Shown one piece after another: positions 20,326 to 40,989 of a stretch of 64,000 nt of DNA. Position numbers and translations under genes: made by a program. The number at the start of each line of letters is the position of its first letter. Position 1 is the stretch's first letter. Source of the stretch: Chloroflexi bacterium HGW-Chloroflexi-2 (GTDB lineage: Bacteria; Chloroflexota; Anaerolineae; Anaerolineales; Anaerolineaceae). The notes beneath the pieces were generated by a model. That model saw nothing but the letters and a program-made list of their open reading frames with translations. It was not told the origin of the DNA and did not search any database. The DNA lies in contig PHBY01000001.1 in NCBI GenBank assembly GCA_002840735.1, positions 124,001 to 188,000 of the forward strand. The letters are read 5' to 3'.

Positions 20326-20419
20326 GGGAGTGGTTAGGTCCCGGTGGGCTTCCCGGTCTTCAAAATCGGTGGCGGGTTGTTATGCAGGCCGCGGTGGGTT
20401 CGACTCCCATCCATTCCCG
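20326..20419 (+). tRNA. selC: tRNA-Sec (anticodon TCA)
   Basis: A 94-base tRNA with the unusual selenocysteine architecture. The acceptor stem is 8 bp: GGGAGTGG (20326-20333) / CCATTCCC (20411-20418). The T stem GTGGG/CCCAT adds 5 bp, giving the 13-bp composite arm. The anticodon loop is CTTCAAA with TCA at 20360-20362. The long extra arm holds GCGG/CCGC and the discriminator is G. The CCA end is not fully encoded (GCC then TG). Partner selB ends at the right edge of the window. Confidence 0.93.
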
Positions 20420-39268: not shown

Positions 39269-40606
39269 TTACGCTGTTTCTAAATAGCGCTGTTTTTCCC
39301 AGTCAGTGACAAAAATACGGTATTCATCCCATTCTGCTCGTTTAGCACGCATGAAAGCGCCATACATTTCACTACCAAGACTATTTTTAATCACTTCATC
39401 TTTTTCTAATTCATTGAGTGCTTCTAATAGTGAACCAGGTAATTGACGAATTCCCATTGCCGCACGTTCCTCTATTGATAATGAGTATATATTGACATTG
39501 TTTAATGGTTTCGGGGGAGTCATCTTTTTCTCAACACCATCCATGGCTGCGGATAGCATGGCGTTAAATTGCAAATAAGGATTTCCTGATGGATCCGGAC
39601 AGCGTAATTCTGCTCTCACTGCCTTATCTTTACCAGGCGTAAATCTTGGGATCCGAATCAAAGCTGATCGATTTTCACCAGCCCAACCAATGTACACAGG
39701 TGCTTCATATCCAGGCACTAATCGTTTGTATGAATTTACAGTGGGGGATAGGATGGCAGATAAGGAGCGCGCATGATGCAGTTGCCCGGCCAGGAAGTGA
39801 TATGCCAGATCTGATAGATGAAATTCATCATGAGCATCATAGAATAGATTATTTCCGTTATGATCAAACAGTGATTGGTGACAGTGCATGCCTGATCCAT
39901 TGACACCATATATTGGTTTTGGCATAAAGGAAGCAATCAAATCATGTTTTGCGGCAATTGCCTTGACTGTATATTTGAGTGTCAGAACATTGTCGGCAGT
40001 CTTTAAAGCTTCTCCAAATTCAAAATCAATTTCATGTTGACCTAAGGCCACTTCATGATGTCCAACTTCAACTTCCAGACCCATCTGAATGAGCGCACTC
40101 ATCAATTCTGTTCTCACCCTGACAGCTTCATCATTGGGTGAAAAATCAAAATACCCACCCACATCATGGGGAACAGGATGAACATTATCTGTTCCATTTC
40201 GTCGGAAAAGGAAAAATTCTGGCTCAGGACCCACATTGAAAATGTAGCCTTTACTTTCCAATGCTTTTAATTTCCGTTTCAAGACACCACGGGGATCACC
40301 CTCGAAAGGAGATCCGTCAGGATGAAAAATTTCGCAGAAAAATCTTGCTCTTTTATTTTCATCCGGAGACCAGGGTAGTACCGCATAGGTATCCATATCC
40401 AGACGAAGATGCATATCACTCTCCTGGATTCTGGAAAAACCTTGAACGGATGAGCCATCAAACCAGACTCCATCGTCCAAAGCCCCTTCTAATCTTTTCA
40501 CCGGTGCATCAACACTTTTTACGGTTCCGGTAATATCAGTGAATTGATATGATACATATCTCACACCATCAGCTTTAACGCGTTCTAAAATTTCTTTTTT
40601 ATCCAT
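39269..40606 (-). CDS. glnA: Glutamine synthetase type I (GSI-alpha-like)
   Basis: A 445-aa GS assembling ammonium and glutamate to glutamine. Visible: the substrate block WFDGSSVQGFSRIQESDMHL (about residues 50-69), GVNGSGMHCHQS (ATP/ammonia site), NRSALIRIPR and the C-terminal NIYSLSIEERAAMGIRQLPGSL. The adenylylation Tyr motif of GSI-beta (NLYDLP) is absent, consistent with the GSI-alpha branch that is not adenylylated. The ATG at 40606 has GGAG seven bases upstream; one at 40612 also fits. Its leader carries a glmS-type ribozyme, so expression may respond to glucosamine-6-phosphate. Confidence 0.95.
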   Translation of the reverse strand: MDKKEILERVKADGVRYVSYQFTDITGTVKSVDAPVKRLEGALDDGVWFDGSSVQGFSRIQESDMHLRLDMDTYAVLPWSPDENKRARFFCEIFHPDGSPFEGDPRGVLKRKLKALESKGYIFNVGPEPEFFLFRRNGTDNVHPVPHDVGGYFDFSPNDEAVRVRTELMSALIQMGLEVEVGHHEVALGQHEIDFEFGEALKTADNVLTLKYTVKAIAAKHDLIASFMPKPIYGVNGSGMHCHQSLFDHNGNNLFYDAHDEFHLSDLAYHFLAGQLHHARSLSAILSPTVNSYKRLVPGYEAPVYIGWAGENRSALIRIPRFTPGKDKAVRAELRCPDPSGNPYLQFNAMLSAAMDGVEKKMTPPKPLNNVNIYSLSIEERAAMGIRQLPGSLLEALNELEKDEVIKNSLGSEMYGAFMRAKRAEWDEYRIFVTDWEKQRYLETA

Positions 40607-40711: not shown

Positions 40712-40714
40712 TTT

Positions 40715-40920
40715 CTTACCACTACGGCTCTTTGTTTCTGTTGTCACCAACAGATTTTCAGAAACACATTTTTTTTGGAGATTGAAGCCAGTGGTGTGGC
40801 TTTGAAGGCATCCGCTGATCACTCGATTTTCTTCTGTTTATTTCGCCCCTGACAGAATTAACACTCTCTTTGCAGAGAGGAACCTCCTCCTCGTCATCTC
40901 AATGATGAGATTCAGTCGCT
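40715..40920 (-). ncRNA. glmS-type self-cleaving ribozyme in the glnA leader
   Basis: Minus strand, 5' to 3'. Cleavage site A|GCG (40920|40919). P1 hairpin ATCTCA-TCAT-TGAGAT (40911-40896). Core GACGAGGAGGAGGTT (40895-40881) and ATCGAGTGATCAGCGGATG (40827-40809) are near-identical to the conserved core of glmS ribozymes. P2 GGAGG/CCTTC. P3 AAGCCA/TGGCTT (40802-40785) with loop CACCAC, which can pair with GTGGT (40722-40718) as P3.1. P4 CTGTTG-GTGA-CAACAG (40753-40738), then AAAGAGC. A 51-base insertion carries two extra hairpins. The position before glnA, not glmS, is unusual. Confidence 0.72.
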
Positions 40921-40959
40921 AGATCTCCATTTATTAAGTTTTTAATTTTCAATGGAGTT

Positions 40960-40989
40960 AGTCTACCTGAAACAGGATACTGTTGTCAA
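40960..40989 (-). promoter_or_regulatory. Promoter of the glnA ribozyme leader
   Basis: TTGACA (40989-40984) and TAGACT (40965-40960) on the minus strand are 18 bp apart. A 7-bp CTCCATT/AATGGAG hairpin (40957-40925) lies between it and the ribozyme cleavage site. Confidence 0.65.

Follow-up and report, generated by a model that had tools for sequence, protein, structure and literature searches.

Why should the leader of a glutamine synthetase gene carry an RNA whose usual place is the leader of glmS? The question is raised by the minus strand of the window, which is the whole stretch of 64,000 nucleotides analysed here. A first-pass annotation of this DNA had proposed a glmS-type ribozyme in front of glnA, and a cmscan search of the whole window bears this out: RF00234 (glmS ribozyme) matches over model positions 1-167 of 167 with 38.5 bits and an E value of 1.8e-5, a score that lies only just above the gathering cut-off of 37 bits. 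All strings named in support of the proposal were found, that is the cleavage site A|GCG, GACGAGGAGGAGGTT and ATCGAGTGATCAGCGGATG, ACCAC complementary to GTGGT, and a P4 capped by GTGA. Chance similarity was considered and is ruled out by the E value in the window, by recurrence of the element in relatives and by covariation. The next gene, which begins ~100 nt downstream on the same strand, is indeed glnA and not glmS; its product scores 545.7 bits with TIGR00653 (cut-off 429.15). The glnA leader carries a glmS-type ribozyme, presumably self-cleaving (Table 1). The cleavage site and the conserved core strands are present in the window element and in relatives found with the covariance model, the double pseudoknot P2.1/P2.2 is present with P2.2 in a shifted register, and the window element also has the peripheral P3.1 and a P4 with a GNRA loop. 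Absent is the usual, non-defining context of a glmS leader. A glutamine riboswitch (RF01739) gave no match at the gathering threshold anywhere in the window. Apart from the ribozyme, a single Rfam match reaches this threshold in the window, a selenocysteine tRNA at 20326-20418 (+) with 69.9 bits (cut-off 47).

Table 1 Features of the glnA leader and its ribozyme, in window positions.
Feature	Position	Strand	Basis
glmS-type ribozyme (RF00234), bulge-4 sub-class	40713..40931	-	cmscan, family recurrence, covariation
Predicted cleavage site, A(-1) 40920 / G1 40919	40919..40920	-	RF00234 alignment position
P2.2 5' strand, C2 G3 (A4 bulge, 40916) C5 U6 G7	40913..40918	-	model-found glnA matches, registers compared
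P2.2 3' strand, C52 A53 G54 C55 G56 (core numbering of PMC7125110)	40813..40817	-	letters in 29/29 model-found glnA matches
P1 hairpin (TCTCA...TGAGA)	40897..40910	-	covariation
GACGAGG core strand and P2 5' strand	40881..40895	-	cmscan alignment; ACGAGG in 28/28 model-found glnA matches
Two-hairpin insertion between P2 and the AUCGA pocket strand	40829..40880	-	covarying hairpins (alignment helices 5, 6)
P3.1 pseudoknot, L3 strand ACCAC	40791..40795	-	covariation with 3' strand
P3.1 3' strand GTGGT	40718..40722	-	covariation with L3 strand
P4 with GUGA tetraloop	40737..40754	-	cmscan; alignment helix 9
Extra helix 'P0', 5' strand upstream of cleavage site	40923..40929	-	pairs with 40776-40782; 7 complementary bases
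'P0' 3' strand, after P3	40776..40782	-	pairs with 40923-40929
Promoter-like site TTGACA-18-TAGACT, first base 40989	40960..40989	-	consensus scan, 10/12
glnA, type I glutamine synthetase, presumed controlled gene	39269..40606	-	TIGR00653; Pfam Gln-synt_C, Gln-synt_N

The start codon of glnA is probably the ATG at 40606, 7 nt after a GGAG. The promoter-like site is one of four found in the region by the consensus scan compared with a mean of 2.1 in shuffles, which is weak evidence; transcription would start near 40953 and the scissile step would then lie ~33 nt into the transcript. Within the ribozyme insertion, one of the hairpins (40879-40864) was marked as terminator-like by the same scan. 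The helix listed as 'P0', formed by the flank upstream of the cleavage site and a strand after P3, is absent from the Rfam model. The mean longest complement between the two strands was 7.15 in 133 glmS-type sequences versus 5.47 with swapped partners, and 6.26 versus 5.91 in 130 sequences of the sub-class described below.

The element departs from its glmS-linked relatives in the helix P2.2. In the canonical arrangement, as described in PMC7125110, C2-G56, G3-C55, C4-G54 and C5-G53 are paired and residue 6 is bulged. The glnA elements read GCG-R-CUG on the 5' strand and CAGCG on the 3' strand, and if they are forced into the canonical register two of the five P2.2 pairs fail in each of 66 aligned sequences, leaving 60% paired. 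With purine 4 bulged instead, C2-G56, G3-C55, C5-G54, U6-A53 and G7-C52 all form in 66 of 66. Note that the pattern used to select these 66 sequences itself prescribes most letters of P2.2; the helix is invariant among them, so that covariation cannot test it, and the unfiltered matches found with the covariance model are the fair basis for counts of P2.2 and core letters. Purine 4, C5 and U6 occur together in 27 of the 28 model-found glnA matches that reach the 5' strand (25 with G and 2 with A at position 4; the sole exception is locus L317), and the 3' strand CAGCG is found in 29 of the 29 with letters there. The changes GCGAC and ATCAGCGG had been taken in the first-pass annotation for the loss of one core pair. 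This is wrong because all P2.2 pairs are kept with the bulge at position 4; the changes shift the bulge. According to PMC7125110 an inward-moved P2.2 bulge rescues mutants in vitro, with A6C rescuing C4A about 24-fold, and the register of the glnA elements is in essence that rescuing arrangement.

For the link between P2.2 genotype and downstream gene only the model-found set is informative, the pattern-found set having been selected by the P2.2 signature itself. The model-found loci share descent, and a Fisher value for the link is therefore no fair measure of probability. Among the model-found matches listed, the genotype R4C5U6/A53 is present at 27 parsed glnA loci and at one orphan locus; the glmS loci have either C4C5/G53 (61 loci) or C4A5/A53 (79 loci). 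The exceptions are the glnA locus L317 with C4A5/A53 and a glutamate-synthase-like locus, L106, with C4C5/G53. P2.2 could not be parsed at 19 of the 201 model-found loci, two of which are glnA loci with matches cut short (L083 and L094); the full sub-class signature was later matched in both. The model-found set, among the matches listed, accordingly holds 30 members of the sub-class, 29 before glnA, one orphan and none before glmS. A different change was seen at glmS-type loci, where C5-G53 is jointly switched to A5/A53 at 84 of the 201 model-found loci among the matches listed; where U6 is present, position 5 could then be the bulged one.

The fold of the sub-class was assessed on an alignment of 66 distinct sequences, drawn from 73 short ones of 116 extracted; the other seven (L121, L125, L126, L191, L192, L196 and L218) were removed manually because they were near copies or had a doubtful 3' end. 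In this alignment 95.3% of the cells of the 47 proposed pairs are paired, and 30 of the 47 pairs are changed on both sides. The covariation score is 0.452 versus 0.181 in shuffles, none of 500 shuffles reaching it, and sliding the partners by 1-3 columns leaves only 36-43% paired. The fold is under selection. In P2.1, 98% of the cells are paired, and in P1 five of seven proposed pairs are changed on both sides; an extra, lowest P1 pair (8-26) is partly supported, being unpaired in 46 of 66. Three pairs of P3.1 are changed on both sides. Its two inner variable pairs covary in a test with 69 of the 73 sequences, where 0 of 5000 shuffles scored as high, and the outermost, third variable pair was not supported (28/56 unpaired in the alignment and below shuffles in the 69-sequence test). 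The insertion had been put forward as a sign of new specificity, a reading that fails since a like insertion of ~50 nt is present in ribozymes before glmS of the same family.

The letters of the catalytic core were counted on the unfiltered matches. Position -1 is A in 27 of 28 model-found glnA matches with letters there. G1, C2 and G3 are present in 28/28 glnA matches and in 155-157 of 157 glmS matches (G1 in 155/157), G7 and ACGAGG in 28/28 glnA matches with letters, and CGAG in 28/28 versus 157-158 of 158. The pocket strand AUCG and the string UC-A-GCGG are found in 29 of 29 glnA matches with letters, GCGG being present in 158-160 of 160 glmS matches. For UCG the figures are 29/29 and 138-142 of ~145 glmS matches with letters there; these columns are difficult to align because of the insertion, and 15-16 of the 160 glmS matches have a gap in them. 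The glnA elements thus share their active-site and pocket letters with the glmS-linked ribozymes, which favours glucosamine-6-phosphate (GlcN6P) as their ligand. Two positions depart from this pattern. Position 53 is A or G in the glmS matches, unlike the fixed A53 of the glnA matches, and position 26, whose G forms a triple with the pair G7-C52, carries G in 156/158 glmS matches compared with 19/28 glnA matches with letters there. Among 133 sub-class sequences, obtained with search expressions that left this position free, it is G in 41%.

That the arrangement recurs before glnA in relatives, as had been suggested for checking, was confirmed on a broad set of genomes. RF00234 matches at E <= 0.1 in 36 of 41 genomes of the family and at E <= 0.01 in 199 of the 396 class genomes. 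Downstream genes were identified by tblastn, the queries being GlnA of the window and GlmS of the window's own genome, later joined by six more proteins. In the 40 family genomes with contexts read, a tally that omits genomes without a match and G392, the ribozyme stands before both glmS and glnA in 26, before glmS only in 11 and before glnA only in 3, so that the glnA link is seen in 29 of 40; for G334 one of two matches was contexted and its entry as 'glnA only' may be incomplete. The 201 model-found loci, among the matches listed, comprise 160 before glmS, 30 before glnA, one before a glutamate-synthase-like gene (L106 in G288, without the shift), one before a YvcK/PGM-like gene and nine others to which the query set assigned no gene or which were too short. 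Listed class matches of G312, G390, G071, G286 and G392 lie outside these 201 loci.

The sub-class pattern was found in at least 118 stretches of the genome_contigs collection, at least 105 of them with a complete core and 13 without; some records of this set are the same genomes as others in the samples. The next gene after the at least 105 core stretches is glnA in 57, an ada-like gene and/or eamA in 28, a split glutamate synthase in 12 and unassigned in 8. Among the stretches listed, glnA lies further on in 22 of the 28 ada-like/eamA cases, and in two of the 12 split glutamate synthase cases the gene starts ~1 kb on; the second protein of L203 scores 302.8 bits with Pfam Glu_synthase. The first assigned gene after a sub-class element is never glmS among the matches and stretches listed. 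Titles were available for 80 of the stretches listed, and the 70 of these with a core all carry either a Chloroflexota name or the name of an Anaerolineales genus. Of the 13 stretches without a full core, three resemble true members, namely L118 and L123, which lie at contig ends, and L135, which has masked bases and is followed by glnA; others shown, such as Rhizobium, Sphingomonas and Paucibacter records, look like chance. The exact pattern, which misses diverged members, is present in 16 of 396 class genomes, corresponding to 16/37 of one order and 0/359 outside this order. By family it is found in 7/11 genomes of the window's family, 9/24 of a second family and 0/2 of two others of the order; a phylum sample of 400 genomes gave the exact pattern only in the same 16 genomes, and a reversed control pattern had no match in the 396 class genomes. 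Records named as cultured species with the sub-class are Longilinea arvoryzae, Bellilinea caldifistulae and Pelolinea submarina. In the latter two glnA follows the element, and the Longilinea arvoryzae locus (L150, identical to L088) is the orphan copy.

Several single loci deserve mention. An isolate with contigs JADHXE01 has a sub-class element before glnA (L148) and another before glutamate synthase (L112), the latter ~1 kb ahead of the gene with small open reading frames between. One lineage (L124, L119, L129 and others) has the order ribozyme, ada-like gene (AraC/O6-methylguanine methyltransferase), eamA transporter gene and glnA in one orientation. At the orphan L088 (2001-2215) there is no recognised gene behind the element on its strand; the next genes face it and by look encode branched-chain amino-acid ABC ATPases. 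In another family, glnA is preceded at L317 (201-406, G321) by a glmS-type ribozyme that lacks the bulge shift, apparently an independent link. A glmS ribozyme at L033 (1501-1716, G245) precedes an open reading frame with CofD/YvcK-like and phosphoglucomutase/GlmM-like parts, both tied to amino-sugar metabolism. L240, L246 and L302 have one before a gene that, named by eye from the sequence, resembles a sugar aminotransferase; L240 and L302 also have what by eye is an oxidoreductase-like gene, and at L302 glmS lies 2.3 kb on. At L108 (2001-2232, G034) a glmS ribozyme stands before the gene for a glycolate-oxidase-like FAD/Fe-S protein, in an assembly with contamination listed as 7.

Searched in full with RF00234 at E <= 1, the genome yielded the window element and just one further match, of 28.3 bits. 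The match to the main glmS gene (TIGR01135, 786.2 bits) lies ~30 nt beyond the end of this sister ribozyme, whose score is below the cut-off of 37. Type I glutamine synthetase is encoded twice in the genome, and near the second gene no RF00234 match was detected in this search. A gene for RNase J is present (576.8 bits with TIGR00649). In the sister ribozyme (L002, 1501-1672) the P4 domain is missing or shrunk, as it is by eye in other glmS-linked copies of the family; the glnA copies keep P4.

We consider it probable that the window element belongs to a lineage-specific sub-class of self-cleaving ribozymes that are triggered by GlcN6P and lower the expression of glnA. GlcN6P, which GlmS makes from glutamine and fructose-6-phosphate, would bind a preformed pocket and supply its amine, and the mRNA would be cleaved between A40920 and G40919. 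The downstream piece with its 5'-OH would then be degraded, probably by RNase J; in B. subtilis RNase J1 degrades the 5'-OH product of the glmS ribozyme (PMC7824784). Plentiful amino sugar would in this way cause GlnA to fall, and together with the sister ribozyme before glmS the cell would shut off the amino-sugar synthase along with an enzyme that supplies its glutamine. GlcN6P is named in PMC6316151 as one of the cumulative feedback inhibitors of the enterobacterial glutamine synthetase, and a lowering of GlnA at high GlcN6P therefore has a precedent at the protein level. The unshifted ribozymes before glnA (L317) and before the glutamate-synthase-like gene (L106) also suggest GlcN6P as the input and a link of nitrogen genes to GlcN6P that arose more than once. 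Against the GlcN6P reading it counts that the one consistent core change of the sub-class affects the very helix in which the cleavage site lies, that the sub-class is tied to nitrogen genes and G26 is relaxed, that the window element scores so close to the cut-off, and that the ada-like and eamA genes found in some operons are not obviously connected with GlcN6P.

Some of these features can be turned into a case for a changed ligand. The shifted sub-class would then report nitrogen status (e.g. glutamine or another amine or phosphorylated amine) with the same catalytic strategy. The P2.2 genotype is tightly linked to glnA, split glutamate synthase and operons containing glnA, the JADHXE01 isolate has the sub-class before both glnA and glutamate synthase, the altered helix positions the cleavage site, and the constraint on G26 is relaxed; moreover, genes of a similar set are controlled by the glutamine riboswitch of cyanobacteria (PMC10216258). 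We nevertheless regard a changed ligand as unlikely, since no change is seen in the letters of pocket and active site, the genotype may be no more than a mark of descent (the exact pattern was found in one order), and the unshifted loci L317 and L106 make GlcN6P a sensible input. It is equally doubtful that the sub-class forms a second, nitrogen-sensing ligand class of the glmS ribozyme fold that governs a nitrogen-assimilation regulon of glutamine synthetase and glutamate synthase in Anaerolineales.

The relaxed G26 could also mean relaxed regulation, with cleavage occurring constitutively, in the presence of any amine or none, and serving to process or destabilise the glnA leader without metabolite sensing. 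Other small ribozymes are known to act in RNA processing. Such a role is very improbable here, however, as the pocket strand is fixed in all glnA matches, and P3.1 and P4 are kept with covariation, as is expected of a tuned, cofactor-dependent ribozyme. The narrow passage over the Rfam cut-off, the orphan copy in Longilinea arvoryzae without a recognised gene behind it on its strand, and the terminator-like site could on the other hand be taken to indicate a decayed, inactive copy of a glmS leader, or a leader reused as plain structure. This we judge the least probable of the readings, with hardly any chance of being correct: covariation is strong in 66 distinct sequences, the core letters are kept in the model-found matches, the glnA link recurs in most of the family genomes read, and the hairpin that resembles a terminator is part of the insertion that covaries. 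Taken together, the interpretation given in the first-pass annotation is partly supported.

If GlcN6P is the input, a single metabolite may adjust both cell-wall sugar and nitrogen assimilation, and the glnA-linked ribozyme would be the equivalent, at the RNA level, of the feedback by which GlcN6P classically inhibits glutamine synthetase. Its recurrence before glutamine synthetase and glutamate synthase would constitute a glmS-ribozyme regulon outside amino-sugar synthesis. The natural shift of the bulge offers a ready test of the suggestion, made in PMC7125110 from in vitro mutagenesis, that P2.2 tolerates inward-shifted bulges, and also of whether the geometry of a core helix can alter the choice of ligand.

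A survey of 2011 by McCown reportedly comprised 463 glmS ribozymes, all but two in glmS mRNAs. In a text search of the literature, which covered the long result lists in part and had that survey outside its scope, no title or abstract was found that links the glmS ribozyme with either glnA or glutamate synthase. The same survey is said to describe structural variants from Deinococcus-Thermus with extra stems inside the core, located before glmS; these are reportedly alike in their extra core stems and differ in gene association and in the bulge shift. The glutamine riboswitch RF01739 is not a ribozyme, and its fold differs from that of the glmS ribozyme. This cyanobacterial 'glnA' RNA has in common with the sub-class the RNA-based control of nitrogen-assimilation genes including glutamine synthetase (PMC10216258). 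With the glmS ribozyme (RF00234) the sub-class shares A|GCG, the double pseudoknot P2.1/P2.2, the GACGAGG and AUCGA strands, GCGG, the P3.1 pseudoknot and P4 with its GNRA loop. It differs by its position before glnA, glutamate synthase or glnA operons, by the P2.2 bulge at position 4 instead of 6 and by the relaxed G26; the two-hairpin insertion is additional to the Rfam fold and also present in the glmS copies of the family. Within the literature covered, the gene set and the P2.2 register are new; the fold is the same and so, presumably, is the chemistry.
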